Source of the DNA: Sphingomonas sp. LM7 | GTDB lineage: Bacteria; Pseudomonadota; Alphaproteobacteria; Sphingomonadales; Sphingomonadaceae | Reading direction: 5' to 3' | Assembly (NCBI RefSeq): GCF_002002925.1 | Contig: NZ_CP019511.1 | Span: forward strand, 3,882,501-3,946,500 | DNA: 64,000 bases | Made by a program: the position numbers and the translations under genes | Notes under the pieces: model-generated | What the model was told of the DNA's origin: nothing | Database searches by the model: none | What the model saw: the letters and a program-made list of their open reading frames with translations, nothing else | Shown here: positions 7,464 through 43,498 of the stretch, in pieces | Numbering within the stretch: position 1 is the first letter of the stretch | Layout: the number at the start of each line of letters is the position of its first letter

Positions 7464-7498
7464 CCATTTGCCTAAGCTGAAGATCAGTATCAAAGTCG

Positions 7499-7527: not shown

Positions 7528-7549
7528 TTGCTTGTCATGGGCCAATTTG

Positions 7550-27441: not shown

Positions 27442-29043
27442 CCCTTCCGCCGGGGCAATGACCTGGCGCAGCATGCCGTCGCGGGTGAGCGCCGCATAAC
27501 GCTGCCATTCCGGGGCATAGTCGGCGCCGGCATCGCGATATCGGTCGTAATGGCTCAGCACCGCATAGCGGGCGCGGCAGCCGGCGAGCCCGGCCAAATC
27601 GACATTGCCGAGATCGACGACCGGGCGTCCCGAGCGAAAAGTTTCCGCCTCGGCATAGCGGATATTGCGGGCGAGCAGCTTGCGCGCGTCGAGGCATCCG
27701 GCGCTGCCGAGCGGGAACAATAGTTTCCACGGGCCAGCGACGAGATCGATTGCGGCATGCTCGACCAGGATCGCGCTGTCGGGCGGGGCATGCGCACGGA
27801 TCCAGGCGGAGGCAATCTGGCGGGTATCGTTTGCGCGCTCGGTCGCGCGGTGCTGCGCGGCCTGGAGCATCGGCACGATCAGCAGCAGTGCGACTAGCGG
27901 TTCGAGGATCGGCAGCGCGCGACCTGTGCGCCAGCGCAGGGCGTCGCTCAGGGCGTGCACCGCATAGCCCAGGGCGATCGCGGCGAAGGGCAGGAGCGGG
28001 ATCAGCCAGCGCTCCCACCGTAGCGCCTGGAGGCAGATCAGCACCGCGAAGGCGGCCACGCCGGGCAGGACGGCGATGGCGGCGGTACGGTTGCGCCGCG
28101 CGATCAGGACGGTGCCGATCGCGGCCAGAGCGACCCCCGCCACGCCGAACGAAAAGTATAATGGATGGCCGACATACCAGGCAAGGTTGGCGATCAGCCC
28201 GCCTCCCGTGGCGCCGGGATGGATCGGCCGGGCTTCGCCGGCGAGGTCGTGGAGGACGGTGGGATAGTCGAATAATAGAAAGGGCGACGCCAGCACCAGC
28301 GCACCCAGCGCGGCCGCAGCAAATGCCAGCAGCTTGCGCGCGTCGCGGTGGCCCTGGGCGATGCGCCAGATGCCCGCGGCAATGGGGCTCAGCGCGATCG
28401 TCGCCGCCGGCCATTTGGTCGCGCAGCCAAGGCCGACGAACATGCCCGCCAGCAGATAGTCGCGCAGTCGGCCGTGCTCGACGATCGCGATCGCCGACGA
28501 CAGGCACAGCAGCATGAAGACGCTGGCCTGGATGTCGGTGCGGATGACCTGCGAATAGTCGATATGCACGGCATTGACCGCGAGGAAGGCGGCGGCGAGC
28601 AGCCCCACGCGTGGACCGCCGATCCGCTTTCCCAATCGCCAGGTAAGGTCGACGCAGGCGACGCCGCAGGCCGCGATGCATAGCCGGACGGGCACGAACA
28701 GGATCGCCGGATCGGCATAGACTGCGCTGACGAACGCGTCGGCATCGGCATATTGCCCGGTCGCGACGCCGATCCCGCCAACGGCGAGGCTGACCAGCGC
28801 GATGCAATAGAGCGTGATCGTGCCGGGATGGCCGAACCAGCCGGGATTGAGGCTGTGGTTCTGCAGCATCTCGACTGCGGTCATCATGAACAGCGGCTCG
28901 TCGGGGTCGTTGAGCGCGGGCAGGCCAAAGCCGATCCCGCGGATCCGCAGCCCCGCGGCGACCAACAGGATCAGGAGCAACAGGCCATATTCGATCCAGG
29001 AATCGCGGTCCGGCTTACGGGCTGGGGGGGAGGGCTGCGTCAT
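27391..29043 (-). CDS. ArnT/PMT-like GT39-family membrane glycosyltransferase
   Basis: This GT-C-fold protein of 550 residues has a first loop with the acidic motif LPALNDPDEPLFMM (catalytic-type Asp), about ten or more hydrophobic segments and a C-terminal periplasmic soluble domain. Such enzymes transfer a sugar from a polyprenyl-phosphate donor to lipid, protein or glycan at the outer face of the inner membrane. The ATG at 29043 (MTQPSPPARK) is chosen over upstream codons that read into the rfbF promoter. It is divergent from rfbF and so probably belongs to the glycan locus. Confidence 0.85.
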   Translation of the reverse strand: MTQPSPPARKPDRDSWIEYGLLLLILLVAAGLRIRGIGFGLPALNDPDEPLFMMTAVEMLQNHSLNPGWFGHPGTITLYCIALVSLAVGGIGVATGQYADADAFVSAVYADPAILFVPVRLCIAACGVACVDLTWRLGKRIGGPRVGLLAAAFLAVNAVHIDYSQVIRTDIQASVFMLLCLSSAIAIVEHGRLRDYLLAGMFVGLGCATKWPAATIALSPIAAGIWRIAQGHRDARKLLAFAAAALGALVLASPFLLFDYPTVLHDLAGEARPIHPGATGGGLIANLAWYVGHPLYFSFGVAGVALAAIGTVLIARRNRTAAIAVLPGVAAFAVLICLQALRWERWLIPLLPFAAIALGYAVHALSDALRWRTGRALPILEPLVALLLIVPMLQAAQHRATERANDTRQIASAWIRAHAPPDSAILVEHAAIDLVAGPWKLLFPLGSAGCLDARKLLARNIRYAEAETFRSGRPVVDLGNVDLAGLAGCRARYAVLSHYDRYRDAGADYAPEWQRYAALTRDGMLRQVIAPAEGLRGGPTLYIFEFSGAR

Positions 29044-29071: not shown

Positions 29072-29845
29072 ATGCGAACCGTAATCCTGGCCGGCGGTCT
29101 GGGCACCCGGCTCGGCGAAGAGACGTCGGTGCGGCCGAAGCCGATGGTCGAGATCGGCGGCATGCCGATCCTGTGGCATATCATGAAGATCTATTCGTCG
29201 AGTGGTTTCAACGACTTCGTCGTGTGCCTTGGCTATAAGGGCTATGTGATCAAGGAGTTCTTCGCGAACTATTTCCTCCACGCCTCCGATGTGACGATCG
29301 ACCTGCGCGGCGGCAACGGCATGGAAGTGCACCACGCCCGCAGCGAGCCGTGGCGGATCACGCTGGTGGACACCGGCGCGACGACGATGACCGGCGGGCG
29401 GCTGGCGGCGATCCGGCCCTATCTCGATCCCGACGAGCCCTTCTGCTTCACCTATGGCGACGGCGTCGCGGACATCGACGTCGGCGAGCTGGTGCGCTTC
29501 CACAAGGAGCATGGCCAGCGCGCGACGATCACGTCGGTGTCACCGCCGGGGCGTTTCGGCGCACTCGAATTCGATGACGGCAAGGTCGTCGATTTCAAGG
29601 AGAAACCTGCGGGCGATGGCGGCCAGATCAATGGCGGGTTCTTCGTCGCCGATCCCTCGGTGCTCGACCTAGTCGACGGGCCGGAGACGGTGTGGGAATC
29701 CGGCCCGCTCGAACGGCTCGCGCGCGGCGGCGAGTTGATGGGATACCGGCACCACGGCTTCTGGCAGCCGATGGATACGCTGCGCGACAAGATCTACCTC
29801 GACGAATTGTGGAAGGCCGGCAAGGCGCCGTGGAAGCGCTGGTGA
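29072..29845 (+). CDS. rfbF: Glucose-1-phosphate cytidylyltransferase
   Basis: The 257-residue enzyme forms CDP-glucose from CTP and glucose-1-phosphate, the first step of CDP-linked deoxysugars. The nucleotidyltransferase signature is LAGGLGTRLGEETSVRPKPM, and it also has WHIMKIYSSSGFNDFVVCLGYKGYVIKEFF and FTYGDGVADID, all typical of RfbF. The ATG at 29072 follows GGAG by five bases. The next gene starts inside its stop (GTGA), so the two are coupled. Confidence 0.95.
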   Translation: MRTVILAGGLGTRLGEETSVRPKPMVEIGGMPILWHIMKIYSSSGFNDFVVCLGYKGYVIKEFFANYFLHASDVTIDLRGGNGMEVHHARSEPWRITLVDTGATTMTGGRLAAIRPYLDPDEPFCFTYGDGVADIDVGELVRFHKEHGQRATITSVSPPGRFGALEFDDGKVVDFKEKPAGDGGQINGGFFVADPSVLDLVDGPETVWESGPLERLARGGELMGYRHHGFWQPMDTLRDKIYLDELWKAGKAPWKRW

Positions 29846-30915
29846 ACAGCTGGCGTGGCCGCCGTGTCCTCGTCACCGGCGATACCGGGTTCAAGGGCAG
29901 CTGGCTGAGCTTGTGGCTCCACGCACTCGGCGCCGAAGTCACCGGCTTCGCGCTGGCACCGCCGAGCGAACCGAGCCTGTTCGATGCGGCGCGGATCGGC
30001 GACCTGATAGCGCACCACGAAGGCGATGTCCGCGACCTGACCGCAGTGCGCGCGGTAGTCGAGGCGTCGCGGCCGGAGGTGATCTTCCATCTCGCAGCGC
30101 AACCGCTGGTGCGCCTGTCATACCGCGAGCCGGTCGAGACCTATGCCACGAACGTGATGGGTACGGTGCATCTGCTCGAGGCCGCGCGTCGTGCGCCCGA
30201 CGTCAAGGCGATCGTCTGCGTCACCAGCGACAAATGCTACGAGAACCGCGAATGGGTTTGGCCCTATCGCGAGAACGATCCGATGGGCGGGCGCGACCCG
30301 TACAGCAGCAGCAAGGGCTGCGCCGAGCTGGTTGCGGCTGCGTATCGCAGCTCGTTCTTCGCCGATGGTCCGGCTCTCGCCACGGTGCGCGCCGGCAACG
30401 TCATCGGCGGCGGCGACTGGGCGGAGGACCGGCTGGTTCCAGACCTGATCCGTGCGTTCGAAGCGGGCGTCGCGCCGCTGATCCGGTCTCCCGATTCCGT
30501 GCGGCCTTGGCAGCATGTGCTCGAAGCGCTCGGCGGATATCTCCAGATCGCCGAGCGGTTGGTGGCCGGGGAACACCAGTTCGCCGACGCGTGGAATTTC
30601 GGACCTGCCGACGACGACACCCAGCCGGTCTCGTGGATCGTCGAGCGGATGCGTGCGGCGTGGGGCGATGCGCCGCGCCCGCATGCGGACCATAGCGCTC
30701 GGGTGCACGAGGCGGGACTGCTCCGGCTCGATTGCTCGAAGGCGCGGGCGGCGCTCGGATGGCGCCCCGCGCTGAACCTCGAACAGGCGCTCGACTGGAT
30801 CGTCGCGTGGCACAAGGCGATCGGACGGGGCGAGGATGCGCGTGCCGTCACCCTCGCCCAGATCGCGGCCTATTCGGCGGCTTCGAGCCAGGGTTCGGTG
30901 CCGGTCGCGGCCTGA
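29842..30915 (+). CDS. rfbG: CDP-glucose 4,6-dehydratase
   Basis: The extended SDR of 357 residues converts CDP-glucose to CDP-4-dehydro-6-deoxy-D-glucose. The NAD loop is VTGDTGFKGSWLSLWL, a form specific to this enzyme. Further markers are HLAAQPLVRLSY, VTSDKCYENREW, and the catalytic YSSSKGCAE. The GTG at 29842 overlaps the rfbF stop by four bases. Its 3' end overlaps the convergent methyltransferase gene by 46 bases. No RfbH/DdhC-type 3-dehydrase is seen in the window, so the 3-deoxy branch may not be used here. Confidence 0.95.
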   Translation: MNSWRGRRVLVTGDTGFKGSWLSLWLHALGAEVTGFALAPPSEPSLFDAARIGDLIAHHEGDVRDLTAVRAVVEASRPEVIFHLAAQPLVRLSYREPVETYATNVMGTVHLLEAARRAPDVKAIVCVTSDKCYENREWVWPYRENDPMGGRDPYSSSKGCAELVAAAYRSSFFADGPALATVRAGNVIGGGDWAEDRLVPDLIRAFEAGVAPLIRSPDSVRPWQHVLEALGGYLQIAERLVAGEHQFADAWNFGPADDDTQPVSWIVERMRAAWGDAPRPHADHSARVHEAGLLRLDCSKARAALGWRPALNLEQALDWIVAWHKAIGRGEDARAVTLAQIAAYSAASSQGSVPVAA

Positions 30916-31817
30916 GCCGGGACGGTCGCCAGCGTCAGCATATTGCCCAACCGCAGGCCCAGCGAGACATCGGGTAGCAGCAGGCGGTTGGGCGTGAGGC
31001 CGATCATCCACAGCGCCTGGCGCGCGAGGAACGGCAGCGGGAAATAATTGCGGCTCCGCTCCACCCGCACGCCGGCATAGCCCGCGCGGCCGAGCAGTGC
31101 GGTGATCGTCGCGGGATTGTAGAGTTCCGGGTGCTGAAGGCAGAAGGGCGGCCAGCGCGTGCCCATCAGCGTGCGCAGCAGCGACTTCTCGTTATGGGTG
31201 ACGATCAGCAGCGTGCCGCCAGGATGCAGCTTGGCGCGAATTTGCCTAAGCGTCGCCAGCGGATCGAGCAAGTGATCGAGAACATGCACCATCACTGCCA
31301 GACCGATCGACCGATCGGGGACTGGCGAAAGATCGTCCATGTCGGTGAGCAGGCTCGCCAGGCTGCCCTGGGCGGAGGCGCGCAGGGTATCGTGGATCGC
31401 GCGATTGGGCTCGAACAGCCAGAAATGGTCGAACGCGCCGCGCGTCGCCGCCTCGCGCACGATATGGCCGGTGTCGGGGCCGATCTCGAGATAGCCGCCG
31501 TCAAGTTTGCCTTGGACGGCGTCGAAATAGCCCTTCTGGGTCGCAGCGATCGCGTCGTTGGAGATCATCTCCATGTTCGGCGCCATGCTCGAATAGAGCT
31601 CGCCCAGCCGCGCGCCATCGAAGAAGGCGGGATTGTAGAGCAGGCCGCAGCCGATGCAGCGATGATAGGTGAAGAAGCGCTTCTCGCTGAACAGCCCCGA
31701 CCAATAGGGGCGAAGCGCATCGACGGTCATCGTCTCGGCGCGGACCGGGCTGTGCACCTCCTCGGTGGTGTCGGTCGCGTTGCACGCCGGGCAGGCGCGG
31801 TAGAGAAATTCGGTCAT
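30870..31817 (-). CDS. Class I SAM methyltransferase with N-terminal zinc-ribbon-like cysteines
   Basis: The 315-residue protein begins with RACPACNATD and later has HRCIGCGLLYNP, two CxxC pairs that could bind zinc. A Rossmann methyltransferase domain follows (YLEIGPDTGHIVREAA, LAVMVHVLDHLLDPLATL, LHPGGTLLIVTHNEKS). Such zinc-ribbon methyltransferases include sugar C- or O-methyltransferases of glycan loci. It is the last gene of the polysaccharide operon; its ATG overlaps the GtrA stop (ATGA). Substrate is inferred to be a sugar of this locus. Confidence 0.85.
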   Translation of the reverse strand: MTEFLYRACPACNATDTTEEVHSPVRAETMTVDALRPYWSGLFSEKRFFTYHRCIGCGLLYNPAFFDGARLGELYSSMAPNMEMISNDAIAATQKGYFDAVQGKLDGGYLEIGPDTGHIVREAATRGAFDHFWLFEPNRAIHDTLRASAQGSLASLLTDMDDLSPVPDRSIGLAVMVHVLDHLLDPLATLRQIRAKLHPGGTLLIVTHNEKSLLRTLMGTRWPPFCLQHPELYNPATITALLGRAGYAGVRVERSRNYFPLPFLARQALWMIGLTPNRLLLPDVSLGLRLGNMLTLATVPAQAATGTEPWLEAAE

Positions 31818-32215
31818 GCGAGCCCGCCTGCGGACCGGAAAGTGACGCGGCTGTGCCAGAACCAGCTGCCGAGGATCAGCAATGCGGTGAAGCCGAGCTG
31901 CGCGACGATGGGCGGGACGCCGCCCAATTCGACGAGCAGCGGCAGCGCTGCCCAATTGGCGGCGTAGTTGAACAGATAGAAGCTTGAGAAGGTGCCGAAC
32001 TCGCGCGCGACATTGCCACGGGTGCGGAACACGCCGAGCTTGTAGGTGGCAAAGGCGAAGCACAGGCTGATTGCCTGCGCGAGCCCCAGTGCGATCAGAT
32101 AATGGGTGTGGAACGCTGGCACGCTCCACAGCAGCAGCGGATAGATCGCCAGCCCAAACGCCGTGTTGGCGGCGCCGGCGAGCAGGAATCGGACGGGGCG
32201 ATGCGCGCGGATCAT
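31814..32215 (-). CDS. GtrA-family flippase-like membrane protein
   Basis: A small polytopic protein of 133 residues with four hydrophobic segments and the GtrA pattern RFLLAGAANTAFGLAIYPLLL, FAFATYKLGVFR and FWHSRVTF. GtrA proteins are proposed to move polyprenyl-phosphate-linked sugars across the inner membrane. A GtrB-like GT2 and a GT-C transferase occur in the same operon, which mirrors gtrA-gtrB-gtr modules that modify O-antigen. Four-base overlaps link it to both neighbours. Confidence 0.9.
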   Translation of the reverse strand: MIRAHRPVRFLLAGAANTAFGLAIYPLLLWSVPAFHTHYLIALGLAQAISLCFAFATYKLGVFRTRGNVAREFGTFSSFYLFNYAANWAALPLLVELGGVPPIVAQLGFTALLILGSWFWHSRVTFRSAGGLA

Positions 32216-34032
32216 TCTTCCTCCAGCAGGGCGATACGCATATTTTCGCGCAGCACTTCGCGAGGGAGGAAGGGCGACAGGTCTTCGAGCGGCGGAGAGG
32301 TTATCCGGCCATCGGGGTGCGCCTTGGCGCCGAGCTTGGGGGCGAAGGCGACATGTTCGTCGACGAAGATCTCGCAGACTACGGGGCCATCGGCAGCGAG
32401 CGCTGCCTCGATCGCAACTCCGAGTTCCTCATGCGATTCCGCGCGGAAATAGGCGAAGCCGAACGCAGCGGCGACCTTTCCGAAATCGGGGAAGGTGACA
32501 TTGCTCTTGGGCCCGCCGCCAACCTCCTCGCCGTTGAAGAAGTTGCGCTGGGTCTGGAAGATCGAGACATAGCCGCTGTTGTTAATCAGGAAGACCTTCA
32601 CCGGCAGGCCATTGCCGGCGATGGTCTGCATTTCCTGCAGGTTCATCATGATGCTGCCGTCGCCAGCGATGGCGATGACGCGCTGCTTGCCGCCGGTCGC
32701 GGCGCACACGCCGATCGCCGCGGGCAGGTCGTAGCCCATCGTCGCGCAGCCCGAATTGGTCCAGAGGCGCTGGCCGCGCTTGATCTCGGCGACCTGGAAG
32801 CTGACCACGCAGGCGCTGCCGTTGCCGGTGACGATGACATCGTCCTCGTCGAGCCGATCGAACAGCGCTTCCATCGCGACATAGGGGTGCACGCTGGGGC
32901 CGTGGTTGCGATATTCGGGGAGTACCGCGGGGAAGTTCCAGACGCGCTCGCGCGACCATTCGAGCCATTCGGCGTGCGCGGCGGTGGGGCCTGCATAGGG
33001 CGCTTCGAGCAGCGCCGGGATCAGATCGGCGAGGTCGGCGACCACCGGCATGTCGGGCGTCACGGTCGGCTTGCGCAGCTCGACCGGATCGATGTCGACC
33101 CAGATCTTGTAGGCTTCGCGTGCGAAGGTCTTCCAGTTGTAGCTGACCTGGCGGATGTTGAGCCGGCTGCCGAGGACGAGCAGGAGATCGGCGCTCTGGG
33201 TGACCATGTTGCCGCCGCGATCGCCCACGGTGCCGGGGCGCCCGGCATAGAGCGGATGCGCGTTCCACAGCACGTCGTGCGCGTTCCAGCCGGTGACGAC
33301 GGGGACGCCGAGCTTGTCGATCAGCGCGAGGAAATCGGCATGTGCCCCGCTCAGCCGCACGCCGCTGCCGGCGAAGACCACCGGGCGCTCGGCAGCGGCG
33401 AGCTTTTCGAGGATCGCGCGAGCGGTGGCGTCGAGGTCGGTGGCCTTCCACGGCTCGTCGAGCTCGGCGGGATCGAAGCCGGCGAGCTGGGCGGGGTCGA
33501 TCTTGGCGGCCTGGACGTCGAGCGGGATGTCGAGCCAGACCGGGCCGGGGCGGCCCGAAGTGGCGAGGTACAGCGCCTTTTCGAGATGATAGCGAATGGT
33601 CAGCGGGTCGGTGACCATCGTCGCGTACTTCGTGATCGGGCGGACGATCGGCTCGATATCGAGTTCCTGGTCGCCGAACTGGCGCAGCGGCAGGCCGGTA
33701 GCGCGGACGGTGGTTTCGTTCTTCACCTGGCCCGAGATCACCAGCATGCCGATCGAGTCGACATAGGCGCCATAGACGCCGGTGATCGCATTGGTGCCGC
33801 CCGGGCCCGAGGTGACGTTGACCACCGCGAGCCGGTTGGTCAGCCGGTAATAGGCCTCGGCCGCCATCGAGAGCGCCTGCTCGTGATGGGTGAAGGTGGT
33901 GGCGAGCCTGGGATGCGTGCCGAGCGCGTGGTTGAGGTGCATCGCGCCGCCGCCGGTAAGCATGAAGACATGATCGATGCCGCGCGCGGCAAGGGTATCC
34001 GCCACCCAATGGGCGAGCTTTACTTGGGTCAT
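32212..34032 (-). CDS. ThDP-dependent enzyme of the acetolactate synthase/YerE type
   Basis: The 606-residue protein has the three-domain layout of IlvB-like enzymes. The catalytic-type Glu is E51 in TFTHHEQALSMAAEA, followed by VTSGPGGTNAITGV. The central domain has VFAGSGVRLSGA. The C-terminal thiamine-diphosphate motif is AGDGSIMMNLQ (GDGS about 457-460). Position between an SDR and GtrA, close to rfbF and rfbG, argues against a housekeeping acetolactate synthase; no ilvN regulatory subunit is present. The best model is YerE, which adds a two-carbon acetyl unit from pyruvate to a CDP-4-keto-deoxysugar. The acceptor is unproven. Confidence 0.85.
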   Translation of the reverse strand: MTQVKLAHWVADTLAARGIDHVFMLTGGGAMHLNHALGTHPRLATTFTHHEQALSMAAEAYYRLTNRLAVVNVTSGPGGTNAITGVYGAYVDSIGMLVISGQVKNETTVRATGLPLRQFGDQELDIEPIVRPITKYATMVTDPLTIRYHLEKALYLATSGRPGPVWLDIPLDVQAAKIDPAQLAGFDPAELDEPWKATDLDATARAILEKLAAAERPVVFAGSGVRLSGAHADFLALIDKLGVPVVTGWNAHDVLWNAHPLYAGRPGTVGDRGGNMVTQSADLLLVLGSRLNIRQVSYNWKTFAREAYKIWVDIDPVELRKPTVTPDMPVVADLADLIPALLEAPYAGPTAAHAEWLEWSRERVWNFPAVLPEYRNHGPSVHPYVAMEALFDRLDEDDVIVTGNGSACVVSFQVAEIKRGQRLWTNSGCATMGYDLPAAIGVCAATGGKQRVIAIAGDGSIMMNLQEMQTIAGNGLPVKVFLINNSGYVSIFQTQRNFFNGEEVGGGPKSNVTFPDFGKVAAAFGFAYFRAESHEELGVAIEAALAADGPVVCEIFVDEHVAFAPKLGAKAHPDGRITSPPLEDLSPFLPREVLRENMRIALLEEE

Positions 34033-35039
34033 GGTTTCCATCCGTTGGCGCGCGCGGTGCGCAGGATCGCGTCGTCGAGGCTGATCGTCGGCGCGACGCC
34101 GAGTTCGGCGCGGACGCGCGCAGTAGAGGGGACGTAGCGGCCGGCGTTCCAGCCGGGATCGGGACGCCCGAGGATCTCGACTCCGGGACCGCCGAGCAGC
34201 GATGCCGTGCGGCGGGCGAGGTCGGCGATCGACACCGCTTCCTCCGAGCCCATATTGACCACCGTGCCGGGCTTGCCGGCGATCAGCAGCGTCCACAGCC
34301 AGATCGTGAGATCGGCGGCGTAGAGATAGGAGCGCACCGCTTCGCCCGAACCGATGATGCGGATCGGCTTGCCCGCCATCGCATCGCGGATGAAATTGCC
34401 CGCGGCGAAATGGATGTCGAGCGAGAGCAGGGGCCCAAGCAGCGCGAAGATGCGGGCGTTGACCACATCGAGCCCGAATTGCTGCGCATAGATCGCGCAG
34501 AGCATCTCGGCGGCGCGCTTGCCTTCGCCATAGGCGGAGAGCGGATCGCAGGGATCGGGGCCGCCGCGCCAGTCCTCGGCGACATGCGTCACGTCCCACG
34601 GCTGCACGCCATAGACCGCGCCCGAGCTGAGGAAGACGAAGCGCGCCTTGTCGTCCTTGGCGACATTGAGCGCGCGGCGCGTGCCCTCGACGATCGTGTC
34701 GAACATGCGGCGCGGATCATTGGCGTTGAGCGCGGCGCTGGCATCGGTCGCGGCGTGGATAACGTGGGTGTAGTTGCCTGCGGGAGCGAGGAAGCTGGTG
34801 ACGTCGCCGGCGACCAGCTCGAAGCGTGCGGCGAGGTGCGGCGCGCGGGCGGCGAAGGCATCGGGGTCGCGGCTGAGCAGGGTGACCTGGGCGTCGACGC
34901 CCGAGCGGGCCAGGGCTTCGAGCATCCAGCGTCCGATGAAGCCGGTGCCGCCGGTCATGAAGACGCGCGCGCCGGCTAGGCGCGGCCAGAGCGGGGCGAG
35001 CGCGGCGTTGATCGCCGCCATATCCGCTTCGAAGATCAT
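34029..35039 (-). CDS. NAD-dependent epimerase/dehydratase-type sugar reductase (extended SDR)
   Basis: The extended SDR of 336 residues has the dinucleotide loop MTGGTGFIGRWML (29-40), VIHAATDAS, catalytic-region Ser in VFLSSGAVYG and the active-site YGEGK (Y170, K174). The pattern resembles CDP-tyvelose epimerase/abequose synthase-like enzymes and 4-ketoreductases. In this locus it could reduce a keto group of a CDP-deoxysugar, before or after action of the ThDP enzyme. Four-base overlaps link it to both neighbours. Confidence 0.88.
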   Translation of the reverse strand: MIFEADMAAINAALAPLWPRLAGARVFMTGGTGFIGRWMLEALARSGVDAQVTLLSRDPDAFAARAPHLAARFELVAGDVTSFLAPAGNYTHVIHAATDASAALNANDPRRMFDTIVEGTRRALNVAKDDKARFVFLSSGAVYGVQPWDVTHVAEDWRGGPDPCDPLSAYGEGKRAAEMLCAIYAQQFGLDVVNARIFALLGPLLSLDIHFAAGNFIRDAMAGKPIRIIGSGEAVRSYLYAADLTIWLWTLLIAGKPGTVVNMGSEEAVSIADLARRTASLLGGPGVEILGRPDPGWNAGRYVPSTARVRAELGVAPTISLDDAILRTARANGWKP

Positions 35040-36484
35040 GCGAACCCCAGCGTCGGGCGGTGGAGGCGGTGCGCGCGGACCACGCGGACCAGGCTGTCGA
35101 GCGCGAGTGCCCAGAGGATCAGCGCGACGAGGCCGGGGCGGACGAAATGGCCGATCGCCAGCCCGAAGTTCGGCGTCACCGGGCGGCCGCTCAGCCAGGA
35201 GTTGGTCGCGAGTTCGAGCACGGTCGACAGCGGCCAGTCGGCGACGAGGCAGAGCAGATAGGCGCAGACGATCGCCAGGATCGGGCCCACGCCCTTCCAC
35301 GGCTCGAGCAGGACGAGGAAAAGCAGGAAGGTCTGGGTGTAGCCGCCGGGCGACTGGGTGACGAGATAGGCGGCGAGCAGCAGCATTGCGATCCGCGCGT
35401 GCGACAGCGCCCTGGGCTGGAGCCAGGCGCCGGCGAGCGCGAGCAGCGCGATGCACTGGCTGGCGCGAATGACGAGGGGGACGAGGAATTCGATGGTCTC
35501 GACGGTGCGCGAGGGGACGAACTGGAGCACCGGGATCTGCGAATTGCGGATCAGCAGGAACGGCGCGTAGCTGGTCGAATAATGGATCTCGTTCCACACC
35601 TGGCCGCTCTGGAAGACGACCCAGTTGGCGGTGTTGGCGGCCAGCTCCATCGGGGTCCCGGCGCCGACGATTGCCAGCGTGATCAGGTAGAGGAAGATCG
35701 TCGCGATCCCGGCGAGCTCGAGGCTGCGCCAATCGCGCTTGACGGCGTGGGCGAGCACCGGGAGCAGGAGATAGGGCTTGAAGTTGATCGTCGCCGCGGC
35801 ACCAAGCCAGCGCCACGGGCCGCGCGTGACCAGCGGGCCGTGCGCGAGGATGAAGGCAGGCAGCGCGACGAGGATGAGGTTGCCGCGTTCCAGGGTGAAC
35901 AGCAACGGCAGGCCGAGCCCGAACGCAATCGTGCGCATCGGCGCGGTGCGCGGATCGGCGCGGCGGAAGCTCAGCCAGACGAGGACGACGTCGAGGACGT
36001 AGAAGGCGGTGATCGTCGTGTTGCCGAGCCAGTCGCAATCGCGCGCGTGAAAGGGCGACTGGAGATAGCAGCCGGGCAGGCTGAACAGATCGAGGAAGAC
36101 GAAGGAGAGCGGCGGATAGATGCTGCGCCACACGTCGTAGGCGCCGGGGCGGTTGGCCCAATACGCGGTGTTGAACCAGTCCATGAAGGTGTCGTTGGTG
36201 TCGAACACGAAGGGCTGGGGGAGATAGCCGGTCTTCTGGAAGGCGAGCGCGGTGGCGATCACGCTGGCGACGACGGCCAGTGCGAGGAGGAGTTCGATGA
36301 GCCGCGCGCCTCTCGAACTCCCCTCCCTGGAAGGGAGGGGCTGGGGGTGGGTTTGCGGCGGGCGGGGCTCGATGCCCCGGCCGGCGCCTTCTGCGGCGCG
36401 TTCTGAGTCTTTCGGGCGCGCAGACGCGCGCACCCACCCCCGGCCCCTCCCTTTCAGGGAGGGGAGTTTGATTGGGCGCTTCAC
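35036..36484 (-). CDS. GT87-like GT-C membrane glycosyltransferase with a repeat-derived N-terminus
   Basis: A polytopic protein of 482 residues. After the N-terminus it has about ten hydrophobic segments and motifs such as DTNDTFMDWFNTAYWANRPGAYD, SIYPPLSFVFLDL, FTLERGNLILVALPAF and INFKPYLLLPVL, similar to GT87/PimE-like enzymes that use polyprenyl-phosphate donors. GTG 36484 overlaps the upstream stop (GTGA). Residues about 5-56 come from a 157-bp palindromic repeat that lies in frame in the 5' end (KLPSLKGRGRGWVRA and THPQPLPSREGSS). Without it the protein would start close to the first membrane segment, LIELLLALAVVASVI. Confidence 0.8.
   Translation of the reverse strand: MKRPIKLPSLKGRGRGWVRASARPKDSERAAEGAGRGIEPRPPQTHPQPLPSREGSSRGARLIELLLALAVVASVIATALAFQKTGYLPQPFVFDTNDTFMDWFNTAYWANRPGAYDVWRSIYPPLSFVFLDLFSLPGCYLQSPFHARDCDWLGNTTITAFYVLDVVLVWLSFRRADPRTAPMRTIAFGLGLPLLFTLERGNLILVALPAFILAHGPLVTRGPWRWLGAAATINFKPYLLLPVLAHAVKRDWRSLELAGIATIFLYLITLAIVGAGTPMELAANTANWVVFQSGQVWNEIHYSTSYAPFLLIRNSQIPVLQFVPSRTVETIEFLVPLVIRASQCIALLALAGAWLQPRALSHARIAMLLLAAYLVTQSPGGYTQTFLLFLVLLEPWKGVGPILAIVCAYLLCLVADWPLSTVLELATNSWLSGRPVTPNFGLAIGHFVRPGLVALILWALALDSLVRVVRAHRLHRPTLGFA
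36315..36471. repeat. Palindromic repeat element inside the 5' end of the GT87-like gene
   Basis: Left arm GAACTCCCCTCCCTGGAAGG (from 36315) and right arm ending CCTTTCAGGGAGGGGAGTTTG (to about 36471, interrupted naturally) are inverted copies. Each arm is itself a small hairpin (CCCTCCCT-GGA-AGGGAGGG type), followed by a GGGGGTGGGT box. The centre is GC-rich and contains GCGCCGGCCGGGGC-like palindromic pieces. The element reads open in the gene's frame. Confidence 0.8.
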
Positions 36485-37461
36485 GGCCGCCGGATGAGCG
36501 TGCGCGCGGCGGGGTGGCGGCGGTCGGGGGGGAAGTTGATCCGCTCGGCTTCGATCACCAGCGGCACGTTGCGGGTGCGCTCGGCGAGCATGCGGACCTG
36601 TTCGCCGATCAGGCCGAGGAAGAGCAGCAGCACCGCGAACATCGCGAAGCCGGTGGCGAAACCGAGCAGCGCCAGCGCCGGGCCGCCAAAGAAAGCCGCG
36701 ACCGCCGTTGCCGCACCGAGCAGCAGCGCGATTCCGGCGACGAGGAAGGAGAGCAGGATCGGCATACGCAGCAGCGACTTGGCCGAGCCGGCGAGCCCCG
36801 ACAGCGCGAACGAGAAGAGCGCTGCGGCGTCGTTCTTGCTGGTGCCTGCGGCGCGCTCGGGCCGGTCGAAGGGGAGGATGGCGAGGCGGAAGCCGCTTTC
36901 GACGAGCATGCCGCGGAAGAAGGGCTCGGGCTCGTTCCACGCGGCGAGTGTGTCGACTACTTCGCGGTCGAACAGGCCGAAGCCGGTCGCGCCGGGGATC
37001 ACCGGGTAGTCGCCATAGCGGCGGAGAAAGGCGTAGCCGAGCCCGCGGGCAGCACTCAGCAGCGGCGAGGTGCGCTCTGAACGCCGCTGGCCGAGCACCA
37101 CCTGTGCGCCCGCGCGCCATTGCGCAACGAACGCGCCGATCATCGCCGGCGGGTCCTGAAAGTCGGCGCACATGCCGATCACCGCCGCCCCCTCGGCCTG
37201 GTAGATGCCATAGGTCGGCGAGCGCATCTGGCCGTAGTTGCGGTTGTTGAAGATCGCGCGGATGCGCGGATCCTCGGCGCAGAGCGCGCGCATCAGATCG
37301 CGCGTCGCGTCGGTCGAGTTGTTGTCGATCAGCAGGATCTCGTGCGAGCGGACATGCTGCGCTGCTTCTGCGGTGACCGCGGCGCAGATCGCGCGGACAT
37401 TCTCCTGTTCGTTGAAACAGGGAATGACGATCGAGAGCTCCGGGGACAGCTCTGGTTTCAT
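36481..37461 (-). CDS. GtrB/DPM1-like family 2 glycosyltransferase
   Basis: The 326-residue protein has an N-terminal GT-A domain (SIVIPCFNEQENVRAI, LLIDNNSTDATRDLM, ADFQDPPAMI) and two C-terminal membrane segments (FLVAGIALLLGAATAVAAFF and LLGFATGFAMFAVLLLFLGLIGEQV). This is the layout of GtrB and ArnC, which load a sugar on undecaprenyl phosphate at the cytoplasmic face. In this operon it would charge the carrier with the CDP- or UDP-sugar for GtrA to flip. Four-base overlaps link it to both neighbours. Confidence 0.92.
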   Translation of the reverse strand: MKPELSPELSIVIPCFNEQENVRAICAAVTAEAAQHVRSHEILLIDNNSTDATRDLMRALCAEDPRIRAIFNNRNYGQMRSPTYGIYQAEGAAVIGMCADFQDPPAMIGAFVAQWRAGAQVVLGQRRSERTSPLLSAARGLGYAFLRRYGDYPVIPGATGFGLFDREVVDTLAAWNEPEPFFRGMLVESGFRLAILPFDRPERAAGTSKNDAAALFSFALSGLAGSAKSLLRMPILLSFLVAGIALLLGAATAVAAFFGGPALALLGFATGFAMFAVLLLFLGLIGEQVRMLAERTRNVPLVIEAERINFPPDRRHPAARTLIRRP

Positions 37462-38543
37462 GGCGCGCTCTTGCGCAAGCGCAGGTCGATGCCGGTCGCC
37501 GGCGCGTAGATTTCGGTGAACAGCGCCAGCGCGATCAGCAAGGCGAGCAGCGCCACGGCGGGGACGTTGAACTTCCGGTCGGAATCCAACCGTGGCGCTT
37601 CGATCAGTTGGACGTCGGACGCGGTTTCGGCGGCGAGCGTCTCGACTGCGACTTCCTCAGAAGAGCGCGCGTAGACTTCGTACAGCGCCTGGGCGAAGCG
37701 ATAGTCGCGATAGAGGTTGAGATACTCGCCGGAGACTTCGGACATGCCAGCGACGTTGGGGCCGGCGACGCCGGCGCTCGGGCTCGCGGTCCTAGCGATC
37801 TGGCCGCGCAGCGAACCGACTTCGGACTGGACGGCTTGGAGCTGTGGATTCTCCTCGCCCTGAAAGCGCTGGAGCGTCTGAAGCTCGACCAGCTTGGCCT
37901 GGAGCTGCGCCTCGAGCCCGGCGCGCAGCGACAGCGCCGAACCGAGCTGGGCCTCGGGCTCGGCGAGCCGGTTGCGGCGGCGGAAGTCGTTGAGTGCGGT
38001 CTCGCTGGCCACCACGCGGCCGGCGGCTTCCTTGAAGCGCTGCTGGACGACGTCGCGCTTGCGGCGGACGCGGTCGCGGCCGAGCGCGATGATCCGGTCG
38101 CTGATCGCCAGGACGTAGGCGCGGGTGATCGCCTCGGCCCGGGCGCCGTCGTGCATGCGCGTCTCGACTTCGACGATGCCGCCGGTGAGCGAGTGGATGT
38201 CGACCTTGTTGGTCAGCGTGACGCGCGCCTTGTGCTGGCTGGCATAGGCGTCTGGCCCCGCCAGCTTGAGCTTCGCGATGACTGCGTCGGTGACTTCGGT
38301 GCCGCGCGAAATCGCGAGGTACATGTCGACCGGCTGCTTGGCGCCGCCGAACAAGGCGGCGAAGCCCTGGAGCTGGCCCCCTAGTGCGTTCATCATCGAG
38401 CCGAGGCCGATGCTGTTATTGTCCTGCGGGACGAGCTTGGCGCGGGCGACATAGGGCTGCGGGAAGACGCAGAGCAACGCGAGGACGGCGGCGAGGGCGG
38501 CATAGCCGATGCGCCGGGTGCGCGGATGGGTGACGAGCCTCAT
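37458..38543 (-). CDS. Polysaccharide export inner-membrane protein (Wzz/KpsE type)
   Basis: The protein of 361 residues has an N-terminal membrane span (YAALAAVLALLCVFPQPYVA), a periplasmic coiled-coil domain of about 270 residues and a C-terminal span (VPAVALLALLIALALFTEIYA). It has no cytoplasmic kinase domain, so it is closer to KpsE/Wzz than to Wzc. It should regulate chain length or link the inner membrane to the Wza-like channel encoded just upstream. Four-base overlaps link it to both neighbours. Confidence 0.88.
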   Translation of the reverse strand: MRLVTHPRTRRIGYAALAAVLALLCVFPQPYVARAKLVPQDNNSIGLGSMMNALGGQLQGFAALFGGAKQPVDMYLAISRGTEVTDAVIAKLKLAGPDAYASQHKARVTLTNKVDIHSLTGGIVEVETRMHDGARAEAITRAYVLAISDRIIALGRDRVRRKRDVVQQRFKEAAGRVVASETALNDFRRRNRLAEPEAQLGSALSLRAGLEAQLQAKLVELQTLQRFQGEENPQLQAVQSEVGSLRGQIARTASPSAGVAGPNVAGMSEVSGEYLNLYRDYRFAQALYEVYARSSEEVAVETLAAETASDVQLIEAPRLDSDRKFNVPAVALLALLIALALFTEIYAPATGIDLRLRKSAP

Positions 38544-40402
38544 TGCGTGAGGTTCACGATCGACGCCGCGCCGATCACGCCGCCGAACAGGCTGGAGGTG
38601 ATGTCGCGCAGCCGCGCCCAGAACTCGCCGCGATTGGCGTCGATGGGCACGTAGACGAGATCGCCGGGCAGCGCAGTCGCACGCAGCACGCGCTTGCCGT
38701 CGGCAAGAACGGTGCCGTTGGCGCGGACGACGAAGATTTCCTTCTTGTCGCCGAGCTTCTGCACGCCGCCCGCCGAGCGGACGAAGTCGCCGATCGTCGC
38801 ACCGTCGCGATAGGCGAACGAGGCCGGGGTCGGCACCGCGCCGAATACGCCGACGGTCACCGGACGCGGCGGCACGTAGATCGTGTCGTTGTTCTCGAGG
38901 ATCAGCGCGCCGGGGAGCGCCTGCGCAGTGACCGGCAAGTCGAAGACGAGGCGGCCATTGGGGCGGCGCTCGCGGAGCTGGTCGACGATCGAGCGGACTA
39001 AAGCGAGGTTGGCGGGCTGGACGAGCTCCGCGCGGTTGGCCGAGGTCACCGGCTGCGTGGTGAGCAGCAACTCTGCGTCCTCGACGGCGCGTTCGAAGCT
39101 CTGTTGCTGCTGCGCCTTGACGCTCTCGCGGGTGATCACGCTGGCATAGGGGAATGCCTGGCCGGTCAGACCGCCGGCCTGCGCGACGACATCGGCGAGG
39201 CGCGTGCCGGGCTGGAAATAATAGCGGCCGGGCTTGGCGACTTCGCCGCTGATCGTAACCAGTACCGATTGCTGCGCGAGTGGACGCGCGATGCCGACCT
39301 GCGAGAGTACGCGGACGATGTCGCCGCGGCGCGCTTTGCGGAGCCCCGCTTCGGCGGCGCTGAGTTCCTCCCAGCCCTTGCCCTCGCGGCCGAGCGAATC
39401 GAATACCATCAGCCGGCTGGCGTCGGCCACGGTGTTTACGCCGCCGGCATAGCGGACCGCGTCGCTGACGGTCTCGCCCGGCGCGACTTCGAAGATCGCC
39501 TCGCGGTTGACGCTGCCGATCACGGCGACCTGCTCGCCGGCCGGCGCGATATAGAGGACGTCGCCATTCTGGAGCACGGCGTCGCCGCTGCGGTCGCCCT
39601 TGAGCAGCAAATCGTAGAGATCGAAGTCCGAGACGAGCTTGCCGCCGCGGCGCAGCTGGATCGAGCGGAAGCTGCCGCCCGCCGCGGGGCCGCCCGAGGC
39701 GAGCACCGCGTTGACCAGGGTAGAGAGGCTGCCGACGGTGTACGAGCCGGGCGCTGCCGCGAAGCCGGTGACATAGACCGTGACGCCGTGCAGTCGGCCG
39801 ACAGAGACTTCGAGCTGGAAGCCGCGATATTGCCGCGAGACCCGGCGCGCGATGACGTCGTGGACGTCGCCATAGCGAACGCCACCCACAGAGATCGCGC
39901 CAATGCGGGGAACGAAGATGCGTCCCTCGCTGTCGACCGTCAGCCGGACGCTGGACGCCTGAACCGAACCGGTAAGGCCCAGGAGCAATTCGTCTCCGGG
40001 ATTGAGCCGATAATCGGGTGGCACGGTGGCGCTGGGACCGGCGGCGAAGTCGCGCGCGCCCGGAACGAGCAGGTCGGCCCCGAAGCGGTGCAGGGGGGTG
40101 CCAGCCGCGGCAGAGACGAAGGTCTCGAACTCGCTAGGACGCGTCGGCGGGGCGGGCTTGCCGGGCGCGTCCTGTGGTCGCTCGGCCGAACCGCGCGGGT
40201 CGATGGCCGGCACTTCGATCACCGTCGGCTGGTACGGCGCGGCTTCGGTCGGCGGGACCGCGACCTGCGCCGCGGCGGCGCGGCGGGCGAGCGGGTCGGT
40301 TTGCGGCTGCCCAGAGGAAACCGGCGGGGCGAGCTGCGCCGTCGCGGACATGGGCAGCACGGCGAGAATACAGCCGGCGAGAAGCGTGGATCGGGCAATC
40401 AT
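38540..40402 (-). CDS. Wza-like polysaccharide export outer-membrane protein with several SLBB domains
   Basis: The 620-residue protein has a signal peptide (MIARSTLLAGCILAVLPMSATAQ). A Pro-rich linker follows, then a Poly_export domain (DYRLNPGDELLLGLTGSV) and at least three SLBB-type repeats (YVTGFAAAPGSYTVG, VTISGEVAKPGRYYFQPG and VGVFGAVPTPASFAYRDG). It ends with a hydrophobic segment, LFGGVIGAASIVNL. The start at 40402 overlaps the upstream stop (ATGA); a second ATG at 40414 is possible. It is longer than Escherichia coli Wza and closer to the KpsD-type family. It should form the export channel of the locus. Confidence 0.9.
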   Translation of the reverse strand: MIARSTLLAGCILAVLPMSATAQLAPPVSSGQPQTDPLARRAAAAQVAVPPTEAAPYQPTVIEVPAIDPRGSAERPQDAPGKPAPPTRPSEFETFVSAAAGTPLHRFGADLLVPGARDFAAGPSATVPPDYRLNPGDELLLGLTGSVQASSVRLTVDSEGRIFVPRIGAISVGGVRYGDVHDVIARRVSRQYRGFQLEVSVGRLHGVTVYVTGFAAAPGSYTVGSLSTLVNAVLASGGPAAGGSFRSIQLRRGGKLVSDFDLYDLLLKGDRSGDAVLQNGDVLYIAPAGEQVAVIGSVNREAIFEVAPGETVSDAVRYAGGVNTVADASRLMVFDSLGREGKGWEELSAAEAGLRKARRGDIVRVLSQVGIARPLAQQSVLVTISGEVAKPGRYYFQPGTRLADVVAQAGGLTGQAFPYASVITRESVKAQQQQSFERAVEDAELLLTTQPVTSANRAELVQPANLALVRSIVDQLRERRPNGRLVFDLPVTAQALPGALILENNDTIYVPPRPVTVGVFGAVPTPASFAYRDGATIGDFVRSAGGVQKLGDKKEIFVVRANGTVLADGKRVLRATALPGDLVYVPIDANRGEFWARLRDITSSLFGGVIGAASIVNLTQ

Positions 40403-41229
40403 GAGGTCAGGCATTCCAGTTCGACTAGGCCGGCGGCGGGGCCAAGCAGGACATTGGCCGCCTGTTCCCACAGCGCGTCGCTCGCAGCGGCGAGGACGCC
40501 GGTGCTGCGGCCGCCGACGCGATATGGCGCTCCGTCCCAATGGGTGATGTGGCCTCCCGCTTCGGTGAGGAACAAGGCGCCTGCGGCATGATCCCAGGGC
40601 AGGATGCGCTGGAACAAGGCCACATCGTCCTCCCCGAGCACGAGCCGCGGATAGCTCTCGGCGGCGCAGCGCGGGACGGGGACGACATCGAGATGCAGAT
40701 CGGCGTGGGCGTGGGCACGCACACGCCGATCCGAGACGAGAAAATGGGTGCCAAGCGCTGCGCGAGGCCGCGCCGTGTCGGTCGGCCGGGAGCGGACGCG
40801 CGCGCCGTTGATCGTCGCGCCGAAGCCGCGTGCCGCATGACACAGCCGCCCGCTCAACGGATCGAGCATCCATCCGGCAATCGGATCGCCATCTTCGACG
40901 AGCGCAATCATCATGCCGAACGGTTGACGGCCCGCCGCGAAGTTCGCAGTGCCGTCGAGCGGGTCGATCAGCCAGACCAGTCCTTCGCCGACCCCGTCGA
41001 GCAACGCCGGGTCCATCTCGGCGGCTTCCTCGCCCAGGATCCGCGCGCCGAGCCCGAGTTTCGCCAGCCCGGCATGCAGGCGAAGCTCTGACTCGCGATC
41101 GACGACGGTAACGATCTCGCCCGCCGTCTTGATCGCGACTTCATGCGCCGCGAGCGTGCGGAACCGGGGCACCACCACCGTATCGGCGACGGTGCGCAAC
41201 AGCGCGGAGACCTCTTCGTGTAACGGCAT
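40399..41229 (-). CDS. Inositol monophosphatase-family sugar phosphatase (CysQ/SuhB type)
   Basis: The 276-residue enzyme has the metal-binding motifs GEEAAEMD, WLIDPLDGTANFAAG and PWDHAAGALFLTEAGG. This family dephosphorylates inositol phosphates, 3'-phosphoadenosine phosphates or sugar phosphates. Here, inside a glycan operon, a sugar phosphate is a reasonable substrate. It follows the aldolase gene by six bases and overlaps the Wza-like gene by four. Confidence 0.9.
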   Translation of the reverse strand: MPLHEEVSALLRTVADTVVVPRFRTLAAHEVAIKTAGEIVTVVDRESELRLHAGLAKLGLGARILGEEAAEMDPALLDGVGEGLVWLIDPLDGTANFAAGRQPFGMMIALVEDGDPIAGWMLDPLSGRLCHAARGFGATINGARVRSRPTDTARPRAALGTHFLVSDRRVRAHAHADLHLDVVPVPRCAAESYPRLVLGEDDVALFQRILPWDHAAGALFLTEAGGHITHWDGAPYRVGGRSTGVLAAASDALWEQAANVLLGPAAGLVELECLTS

Positions 41230-41235
41230 GCCGGC

Positions 41236-42048
41236 TCAGGCAGCCACGCTCGCCAGCCGGTTGACCGTGGCGCCGGTGCTGCGCTCCTGGATCATCCGGA
41301 TGCGCGACAAATCCTCGTCGGCGATGGCGCGGTAATAATCACGCTTGTTCTCCAGCCAAGCGAGCTCGAACGCCACGGCGTTGGCGATTCCCGCCTCGAA
41401 CAGTGGCGATTCCGCTGCCGAGCCGTCGAAGATCACTTTTCGCGTCTCGAACCGGTCGAGCCGCACGCTGCGGATCTCGCGGAGCGCCGCGCCCGCCTCG
41501 ACTGCGACCGAGCCGCCGACGACCAGGGTCAGGTCGTTGGCCGCGCAGGCCTGCGCGACGCGGAGCACGGCGTCGGTGATCTGGCGGTCGTTGATCGCCT
41601 TGCGCGGCAGCCCGCGCGAAAGGGTGAAATCGACCCGGCCGAACACGATACCGTCGAGCTTCGCCTTGGCGATCGGCAGCATCGCGTCGAGATTGCGCAG
41701 CGTCGCCTCGGTCTCGAGATTGAACAGGAACTGCGAGCCTTGCGGGTTCTCGCCATAAGTCTTGGTCCGCGCCTCGACGAACTTGGTCAGCGCGTAGGGC
41801 GTCTCGATCATCGGGGCGATGACGTGATCGACGCCGTAGAGCTTCGAGGCGAGCAGGTCCGATACCGCCTCGCAGCCGCCGATCTTGAGCGCGACCTTGA
41901 GATCGGCACGGTGCGCGAGCTCGAGCAGGCGGAGAAATTCGTCGGGGCGAGTGCCCTCGGCTTCGAACTCCGCCTTGACCGCGACGACGCCGTAGCGGTC
42001 GCGACCCTTTTTGAGCATGTCGAGCATGCGGCGTTCCGTGGAATTCAT
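41236..42048 (-). CDS. HpcH/HpaI aldolase/citrate lyase-like protein
   Basis: A TIM-barrel protein of 270 residues. Markers are GVVAVKAEFEAEGTRPDEF, LKIGGCEAVSDL, DHVIAPMIETPYAL, the metal-ligand Glu region FNLETEATL and GIVFGRVDFTLSRG, which resemble the metal-dependent pyruvate aldolases. The family makes or breaks C-C bonds with pyruvate or oxaloacetate-type substrates. As the first gene of the operon it could supply or remove a keto-acid unit. The ATG at 42048 has GGGAGGCGAGG directly upstream. Confidence 0.8.
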   Translation of the reverse strand: MNSTERRMLDMLKKGRDRYGVVAVKAEFEAEGTRPDEFLRLLELAHRADLKVALKIGGCEAVSDLLASKLYGVDHVIAPMIETPYALTKFVEARTKTYGENPQGSQFLFNLETEATLRNLDAMLPIAKAKLDGIVFGRVDFTLSRGLPRKAINDRQITDAVLRVAQACAANDLTLVVGGSVAVEAGAALREIRSVRLDRFETRKVIFDGSAAESPLFEAGIANAVAFELAWLENKRDYYRAIADEDLSRIRMIQERSTGATVNRLASVAA

Positions 42049-42185: not shown

Positions 42186-42854
42186 ATGATGCCCGGCCTG
42201 TTACCCCTCCATTTGGTCCTACTGCTCTCGTCCTCCCCGGACCTTGGGCCAGTGGTGCCGGGCATCACCCCTGAGCTCCCCGGCGGCCGCGACGCAGCGT
42301 TCCGCCCCGCACCCGCCGATCCCGCGCCGATGAAGGAACCGCCGATCGAGCCGGAGGCGCCTGCATCGTCCGGGATCCGCGCGGCGCTGCCCCGGCTCTC
42401 CTCGCATTTCGGACGCCGTGGCGATCCGTTCCGCCGGACGTCGGCGATGCATTACGGCATCGACATTCCGGGCCGGCTCGGCACGCCGGTGCTGGCATCG
42501 GCGCCCGGCGTGGTTCGCTTCGCCGGTAACGCGGGCAGCTATGGCGGGATGGTCGAGATCGCGCATGATGGCGCGGTCGATACGCGCTACGCTCATCTCT
42601 CGCGGATCCTGGTGCGGCCGGGTACGCGCGTCGAGCAGGGCCAGCCGGTCGCGCTGATGGGATCGACCGGGCGCTCGACCGGCAGCCACCTCCATTTCGA
42701 AGTACGCGTCGCCGGAACCGCAGTCGATCCGCTGCCTTATCTGGGCACGGCGACGTCGCCGACTGTCGCAAAGGCTTGGATCGCGTCCGACGCCCCCCAT
42801 ATCTCGGCCTTCGCCAAGGCGCGCGCCGATGGACAGCAGGGACGCGCTTTCTGA
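42186..42854 (+). CDS. M23-family peptidoglycan metallopeptidase
   Basis: The exported protein of 222 residues has a signal-like start (MMPGLLPLHLVLLLSSSP), a Pro-rich linker and a LytM/M23 domain. The zinc-site motifs HYGIDIPG and HLHFEVRVAG are present, with GVVRFAGNAGSYGGMVEIAH between. It may cut peptidoglycan cross-links or act as a cell-division activator. The start is uncertain: TTG 42141 is an alternative without a clear ribosome-binding site. It is divergent from the glycan operon. Confidence 0.85.
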   Translation: MMPGLLPLHLVLLLSSSPDLGPVVPGITPELPGGRDAAFRPAPADPAPMKEPPIEPEAPASSGIRAALPRLSSHFGRRGDPFRRTSAMHYGIDIPGRLGTPVLASAPGVVRFAGNAGSYGGMVEIAHDGAVDTRYAHLSRILVRPGTRVEQGQPVALMGSTGRSTGSHLHFEVRVAGTAVDPLPYLGTATSPTVAKAWIASDAPHISAFAKARADGQQGRAF

Positions 42855-42955
42855 ACCGCCATGGAATCTCGTTTGCAGCAGCAGGTCGGCTTTCGTATCC
42901 CCAACATCGCAGGCCGGGGCGGGCAAGCGCTCCGGTGCGCCCGGTGCCGCGCGCG

Positions 42956-43468: not shown

Positions 43469-43498
43469 TCGCGCGGGCTCCGTCATAGGGACATGGCG

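Follow-up and report, generated by a model that had tools for sequence, protein, structure and literature searches.

We analysed a stretch of 64,000 nucleotides from Sphingomonas sp. LM7 (the window; positions 3882501-3946500 of a single-contig closed genome of 4155514 bases, rated 100% complete), in which a gene cluster at 29072..42048 includes an enzyme dependent on thiamine diphosphate (ThDP). The cluster is conserved among sphingomonads and probably builds an unusual carbon-branched surface sugar and moves it across the membrane. In the reading that we prefer, at a probability hardly above one half (roughly 0.5), the locus is responsible for synthesis and export of a C4-branched 6-deoxyhexose with its 3-hydroxyl intact, using a donor supplied by an HpcH/HpaI-like protein (HpcH) and resulting in a branch of more than two carbons. 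As judged from its sequence, the ThDP protein is a YerE-like carboligase and not an acetohydroxyacid synthase (AHAS).

The ThDP enzyme and its locus

The ThDP protein has all three thiamine pyrophosphate (TPP)-enzyme domains, a canonical GDG motif at 457 and an active-site Glu at 51. Its closest solved relative is JanthE (8rph, 433 bits; 39% identity), followed by 5ahk (219 bits) and E. coli AHAS I (6lpi, 218 bits); in a comparison set JanthE scores 431 bits, the genome's own AHAS 233, E. coli IlvI 226 and IlvB 218. JanthE is a characterised YerE-like enzyme according to PMC12188165 and PMC12247030. A careful tree of 34 chosen rows separates 29 of them (sugar-linked enzymes, JanthE and 5ahk) from E. 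coli IlvB, IlvI, Gcl and PoxB and the genome's own AHAS-type protein (support 100/97), and joins the window protein with JanthE inside the sugar-linked branch (100/100). Two further trees without E. coli references agree, with supports of 98 for 76 rows (a quick tree with long branches, whose outgroup does not lie on one side of a branch) and 99/98 for 33 chosen rows. An earlier, sequence-only reading of this DNA had called the enzyme YerE-like, which is borne out by this placement and by the distance in score to AHAS I; the phylogeny check that it proposed, i.e. whether the protein falls with true acetolactate synthases, finds it standing apart from them.

Alternatively, the protein could be a regular acetolactate synthase whose gene happens to lie beside sugar genes, as AHAS profiles match it at 319 bits. 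This is hardly credible: the score is below the cut-off of the large-subunit model (538), the ThDP gene is linked to a gene for a short-chain dehydrogenase/reductase (SDR) across phyla, and the genome encodes an AHAS-type protein of its own (gene at 281007), which joins E. coli IlvI in the tree (97/93) whereas the window protein does not. An AHAS identity was rejected on the score, the separate gene and the tree placement.

Two observations concern relatives of the enzyme (loci of relatives carry L numbers). PDB entry 5ahk, deposited as an acetolactate synthase, groups in the tree (100/99) with the ThDP genes of the RfbF-RfbG-RfbH loci L115 and L116, and not with E. coli AHAS; its deposited name is probably misleading, and we presume it to be YerE of Pseudomonas protegens. 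A JanthE relative (L114, 777 bits) with the rare CDG motif lies within an RfbF-RfbG-RfbH locus, a context that hints at JanthE's own substrate.

All gene calls made earlier within 29072..42048 were verified at their coordinates. The pair rfbF and rfbG (29072-30915, plus strand) faces a coupled minus-strand operon that runs from 42048 down to 30870, in the order HpcH/HpaI-like protein, phosphatase of the inositol-monophosphatase (IMPase) family, Wza-like, Wzz-like, family 2 glycosyltransferase (GT2), polytopic membrane protein, SDR, ThDP enzyme, GtrA and methyltransferase. Of the nine joints between its genes, six are overlaps of 4 bases; the remaining three are gaps, of 6, 17 and 176 bases. 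Third-position GC content is 0.79-0.92 across the 14 genes measured. The features are as follows.

27391..29043, minus strand: GT-C transferase of the PMT_2 family, next to rfbF and beyond the cluster coordinates given above (PF13231, 51.7 bits)
29072..29845, plus strand: rfbF, glucose-1-phosphate cytidylyltransferase (TIGR02623, 431 bits; cut-off 300)
29842..30915, plus strand: rfbG, CDP-glucose 4,6-dehydratase (TIGR02622, 486 bits; cut-off 278)
30870..31817, minus strand: class I methyltransferase with N-terminal CxxC pairs seen by eye (PF13489; no NCBIfam match)
31814..32215, minus strand: GtrA-family membrane protein, flippase-like (PF04138, 58 bits)
32212..34032, minus strand: putative YerE-like ThDP-dependent carboligase (three TPP domains in Pfam; tree with JanthE)
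34029..35018, minus strand: extended SDR (PF01370)
35036..36304, minus strand: polytopic membrane protein, possible GT-C (no Pfam match; many hydrophobic segments)
36313..36471, no strand: inverted repeat in the only large operon gap (45-nt arms, 89% complementary)
36481..37461, minus strand: GT2 with C-terminal hydrophobic segments, GtrB/ArnC/PgfS-like (PF00535; NF047588, 119 bits, below the cut-off of 500)
37458..38543, minus strand: Wzz/BexC-like chain-length or export inner-membrane protein (TIGR01010, 65 bits, cut-off 437.5; a hydrophobic segment near each end)
38540..40402, minus strand: Wza-like outer-membrane export protein with SLBB domains (PF02563, 54 bits, and PF10531; scan on 38540-40399)
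40399..41229, minus strand: phosphatase of the inositol-monophosphatase family (PF00459, 133 bits)
41236..42048, minus strand: divergent HpcH/HpaI-family protein (PF03328, 34.8 bits; cut-off 25)

Both rfbF and rfbG exceed curated cut-offs, in agreement with the earlier assignment of CDP-4-dehydro-6-deoxyglucose as their product, and family matches were found for each of the other enzymes that had been named in the operon (ThDP enzyme, extended SDR, methyltransferase, HpcH and phosphatase). The membrane components were confirmed in part. Of two proposed GT-C transferases, that at 27391..29043 has its domain match, whereas the protein at 35036-36304 has none in Pfam and is called a transferase from its hydrophobic segments only. 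Similarly, the Wza-like protein of the proposed export pair has PF02563 and SLBB domains, whereas the Wzz-like one lacks a Pfam match and stays far below the TIGR01010 cut-off. Within the 176-base gap the arms of the inverted repeat lie 69 nt apart, and its palindromic 21-mer occurs twice at 36313-36471 and once elsewhere in the window (with 3 mismatches); the repeat is probably a small repetitive element.

Conservation, acceptor and donor

Conservation was assessed on the best 80 of 127 ThDP relatives. Of these loci 47 were taken as sphingomonad (L045 was included on 83% identity), with 33 counted at full length and 14 not counted; of the 33 non-sphingomonad loci the 18 longer than 20 kb were counted. 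Seven genes besides the ThDP gene (HpcH, SDR, GtrA, GT2, the polytopic membrane protein at 35036-36304, Wza and Wzz) are present in all 33 full-length sphingomonad loci. The phosphatase and the PMT_2-family GT-C gene are each found in 31/33, rfbF and rfbG in 24/33 (outside the examined stretch in the other 9) and the methyltransferase, which is thus optional, in 22/33. Among the 18 other loci we found rfbF and rfbG in 16, the GT2 relative in 14, HpcH in 10, GtrA in 8, and Wza and Wzz in none; the last two are sphingomonad additions to the cluster. A rearranged core (ThDP, SDR, GtrA, methyltransferase, GT2, HpcH, rfbF and rfbG) occurs in Bradyrhizobium, beta-proteobacteria and others, with Methylotenera and Polaromonas among the genera. 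The closest named relatives of the window's ThDP gene are in Sphingomonas. Of 150 related genomes, 10 carry the gene (counting that of the window), which is therefore accessory within the group. The earlier view that no described locus has exactly this gene set finds no support in the sense of a set that stands alone, as the same set, whole or nearly so, recurs in many sphingomonad loci. Among the papers listed by our text searches we found no study of the sphingomonad version, of this gene combination or of its product.

For the acceptor, the gene to consider is that of RfbH, which is required for a 3-deoxy acceptor. No RfbH over the cut-off was found in the whole closed genome (best match 54 bits, cut-off 423), so that an absence first noted for the window extends to the entire genome; across the phylum, 36 of 398 genomes score above the cut-off with the same model. 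Because a YerE-like enzyme is accompanied by no RfbH over the cut-off genome-wide, CDP-4-keto-6-deoxyglucose is likely the acceptor here. Of the genomes that carry a ThDP relative, those of 50 of the 80 loci were searched (several are metagenome-assembled genomes, in which absences are weak), and RfbH over the cut-off was present in 23: 2/17 sphingomonads and 21/33 others, with the match of L077 below the cut-off. RfbH is encoded inside the cluster in sphingomonad L019, burkholderial L046 and methanotroph L061, and in none of the 33 full-length sphingomonad loci. Over the 45 rows of the ThDP tree (21 taken as having RfbH, L077 among them, and 24 as lacking it) its status must have changed 8 times or more. 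The idea that the acceptor can be read from this tree was rejected, as RfbH status flips among close relatives. The simplest reading is a tolerant enzyme family, with the 3-hydroxy acceptor being used in the genome that lacks RfbH.

A yersiniose-type 3,6-dideoxy pathway, in which an unrecognised enzyme performs the 3-dehydration instead of RfbH, would be in line with the presence of RfbH in the same cluster of the close relatives L019, L046 and L061. We consider it improbable, given the lack of RfbH over the cut-off in a closed genome, whose best DegT-family match (4114320, 333 bits) coincides with the match of just 54 bits to the RfbH model. Yersiniose proper was rejected on the same genome-wide score. 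Of the earlier proposal that a non-3-deoxy acceptor leads to a different branched sugar, the acceptor part gains from the genome-wide result, whereas the novelty is reduced, since C4-branched sugars that keep O-3 have, as we understand PMC9912281, already been described.

For the donor, attention is drawn to HpcH. Its predicted model (mean predicted local distance difference test, pLDDT, of 92) is a TIM barrel of the pyruvate/phosphoenolpyruvate kind; the metal-binding Glu112 and Asp140 are invariant in 19 sequences, and Lys55 sits, by eye, near the usual Arg position. In a survey of RfbH loci (34 of the 36 genomes exceeding the RfbH cut-off), HpcH was found in 3 of 17 loci with a ThDP gene (L126, L132 and L134, with ThDP enzymes of other subclades) and in 0 of 17 without one. 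Aldolases of the HpcH type produce hydroxylated 2-oxo acids (PMC7610986), and these are favoured over pyruvate by ErwE (PMC12247030). Known branches can also be long: erwiniose has 10 carbons (PMC8657720), of which four would form the branch if it is a hexose plus branch, and caryophyllose has a hydroxylated C6 chain at C4 (PMC7821131). Because HpcH travels with ThDP genes, ErwE prefers hydroxylated 2-oxo acids and known branches can reach as many as six carbons, HpcH is likely the maker of a 2-oxo acid donor. Pyruvate, the donor suggested before, is probably not the only candidate, since this HpcH/HpaI relative accompanies the ThDP enzyme.

The alternative that we take most seriously, albeit as an unlikely one, is a yersiniose-like two-carbon branch: pyruvate and CDP-4-keto-6-deoxyglucose would give a 3-hydroxy analogue of yersiniose, whereas HpcH and the phosphatase would serve another step (e.g. 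a second sugar or a glycerate-type decoration). YerE itself uses pyruvate (PMC12247030), the catalytic residues of HpcH are atypical, and 26 of the 80 ThDP loci, including most Clostridial ones, have no HpcH in the examined stretch (several stretches are short). Nonetheless, HpcH is present in every full-length sphingomonad locus and in 10 of the 18 others longer than 20 kb, and it also accompanies ThDP enzymes from different subclades (L126, L132, L134), all of which speaks against this alternative.

Phosphatase-cyclase exchange and proposed pathway

The phosphatase keeps its GEE, DPLDGT and WDHA residues in at least 97% of 34 sequences. Phosphatase and cyclase occur together in none of the 80 loci: 34 hold only the former, accompanied by HpcH, 18 only the latter, and 28, many of them short, show neither. 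In loci of the cyclase type (many non-sphingomonad relatives and four sphingomonad loci, L025, L028, L029 and L031) the cluster or its surroundings hold, instead of the phosphatase, a short SDR and a putative sugar phosphate cyclase related to AroB; in L028 and L029 the two occupy the exact position of the phosphatase, between HpcH and Wza. Cyclases of sister loci score 291 and 279 bits against TIGR04425 (cut-off 400). In a whole-genome search for cyclases 9 of 22 genomes exceeded 290 bits and 13 gave only 110-132 bits, the level of ordinary AroB; no cyclase-level match was found in the window's genome, whose one match (130 bits) is at that ordinary level.

In the AroB superfamily (dehydroquinate synthase) phosphate is expelled during ring closure. 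Because the phosphatase takes the place of a phosphate-expelling cyclase, the exchange suggests that the shared pathway intermediate is phosphorylated. As a separate observation, the ThDP enzymes of L126 and L132 belong to a distant subclade (33-34% identical), and both loci also encode RfbH, HpcH and an AroB-like cyclase, which makes HpcH and the cyclase look like a mobile module. A modular fork may be sketched, tentatively and as a rather doubtful extension: an HpcH-type enzyme would supply a phosphorylated hydroxy-2-oxo acid, which the ThDP enzyme would graft onto CDP-4-keto-6-deoxyglucose, after which either a phosphatase would leave the branch open (as in the window) or an AroB-like cyclase would expel the phosphate and close a carbocycle. 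If true, each arm of the fork would end in a nucleotide sugar not yet described, destined for an undecaprenyl-phosphate route of the GtrA/GtrB type.

The cyclase-bearing relatives also raise the question whether the cluster family is the bradyrhizose cluster, of which the window would hold a decayed form. The ThDP-HpcH-cyclase version does occur in two Bradyrhizobium genomes, and a cluster of 11 genes, among them one for a 4,6-dehydratase, has been implicated in bradyrhizose (PMC4743980), but searches of 195 Bradyrhizobium genomes, at E up to 1e-100 for this ThDP gene and up to 1e-40 for this HpcH gene, found either one in only 2. Neither of the two is among the 20 of these 195 with photosynthetic reaction-centre genes, the group where bradyrhizose is known, which makes this explanation very improbable; with 0/20 at the thresholds used we rejected the link.

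In the pathway that we propose, RfbF and RfbG should yield CDP-4-keto-6-deoxyglucose, as follows from their families and established chemistry. HpcH would combine pyruvate or a close analogue with a small aldehyde to give a 2-oxo acid; the YerE-like enzyme would decarboxylate such an acid and add the acyl anion to C4, and with a donor of this origin the branch would be longer than the two carbons of YerE. The IMPase-like enzyme may remove phosphate from the donor or the branched product, since a sugar-phosphate cyclase takes its place elsewhere. The SDR, which is 34-41% identical to SDRs in six loci with RfbH and a ThDP gene (L114, L117, L128, L131, L133 and L147), probably acts as reductase on the newly formed ketone of the branch; in strains with the methyltransferase, this enzyme may cap a hydroxyl. 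GtrA and a GtrB-type GT2 with a C-terminal membrane part are both present, the gene pair by which a gtr-type set would be recognised from sequence. Going by family, the GT2 would load the sugar onto undecaprenyl phosphate, GtrA might help the loaded sugar across the membrane, the GT-C protein(s) would attach it on the periplasmic side, and the Wza- and Wzz-like proteins would export the finished glycan. Three further Poly_export proteins are encoded elsewhere in the genome. A search confined to polymerases of the Wzy_C family (PF04932), and thus without Wzx and Wzc, found three in the genome and none in the window.

Several observations weigh against the preferred reading. Three of the 18 sphingomonads checked do carry RfbH (2/17 genomes, and L019 in its locus). 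Members of the ThDP family are at least 67% identical to the window protein with or without RfbH, and the choice of acceptor is therefore not readable from the enzyme. HpcH has no invariant His among the 19 sequences, and the equivalent of the Arg of characterised aldolases was not found in it, whereas class II aldolases of the HpcH/HpaI family have an active-site Arg and His (PMC7610986); its best profile match in the PDB reaches only E 2.5e-4. The exchange of phosphatase for cyclase is a single event on the tree (16 rows with the phosphatase, 22 with the cyclase; L019 and L033 were scored as cyclase from their genomes and L126 and L132 from 44% matches, and rows with neither, e.g. L036 and L042, were excluded). 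It therefore has small statistical weight and is a lead, not proof. Finally, the sphingomonad loci L036 and L042 have neither phosphatase nor cyclase in the stretch examined, and no cyclase in the genome.

Other parts of the window hold further features. Adjoining the operon, at 42776-46838, are genes resembling a FecI-like sigma factor, FecR and a TonB receptor (by eye). At 25025-26230 the reading frame of an apparent gene seems to shift between two overlapping frames, which may reflect a disrupted gene or a fault in the assembly. The head repeats of an 826-aa protein (47905-50385) resemble, by eye, a trimeric autotransporter adhesin, and at 2835-10641 a 1542-aa protein is followed by what look, again by eye, like ABC and membrane-fusion proteins of type I secretion.

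Comparison with known systems

YerE-like enzymes are the sole subclass of their superfamily known for acyl addition to isolated ketones, with more than 200 predicted members, most of them without a known product (PMC12247030). The window enzyme shares with YerE, JanthE and ErwE the TPP domains, the active-site Glu and the linkage to RfbF and RfbG; it differs in that its genome has no RfbH over the cut-off, in the HpcH and phosphatase genes of its operon, and in a GDG motif where JanthE has CDG. The yersiniose A pathway of Yersinia pseudotuberculosis is alike in its branch chemistry on CDP-4-keto-deoxyglucose, after which a reductase acts next, and unlike in its need for RfbH.

Erwiniose and a 3-O-methyl relative in Rhodopseudomonas palustris CGA009 are C4-branched sugars that keep O-3, as we understand PMC9912281; a 3-O-methyl group would fit the window's methyltransferase. 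The R. palustris genes are assumed (RhopE; PMC12247030), and the same source gives the acceptor of ErwE as 3,6-dideoxy, which conflicts with our reading of PMC9912281.

AroB-related sugar phosphate cyclases (TIGR04425) replace the phosphatase in sister loci, whereas the window's genome has none beyond the ordinary AroB level. Modules for gtr O-antigen modification have the layout GtrA, GtrB, Gtr. The window likewise has GtrA, a GT2 with C-terminal hydrophobic segments and membrane proteins of the GT-C type, but its set sits inside an operon for sugar synthesis and export, with three genes between GT2 and gtrA.

Summarizing, the type of chemistry is known, as are C4-branched sugars that keep O-3, and what seems new is this combination of genes. 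The locus links one conserved YerE-like subclade to an acceptor made without RfbH, to a candidate donor-making enzyme and to a choice between phosphatase and cyclase; consequently, the question of donor and acceptor becomes directly assayable with sphingomonad enzymes.

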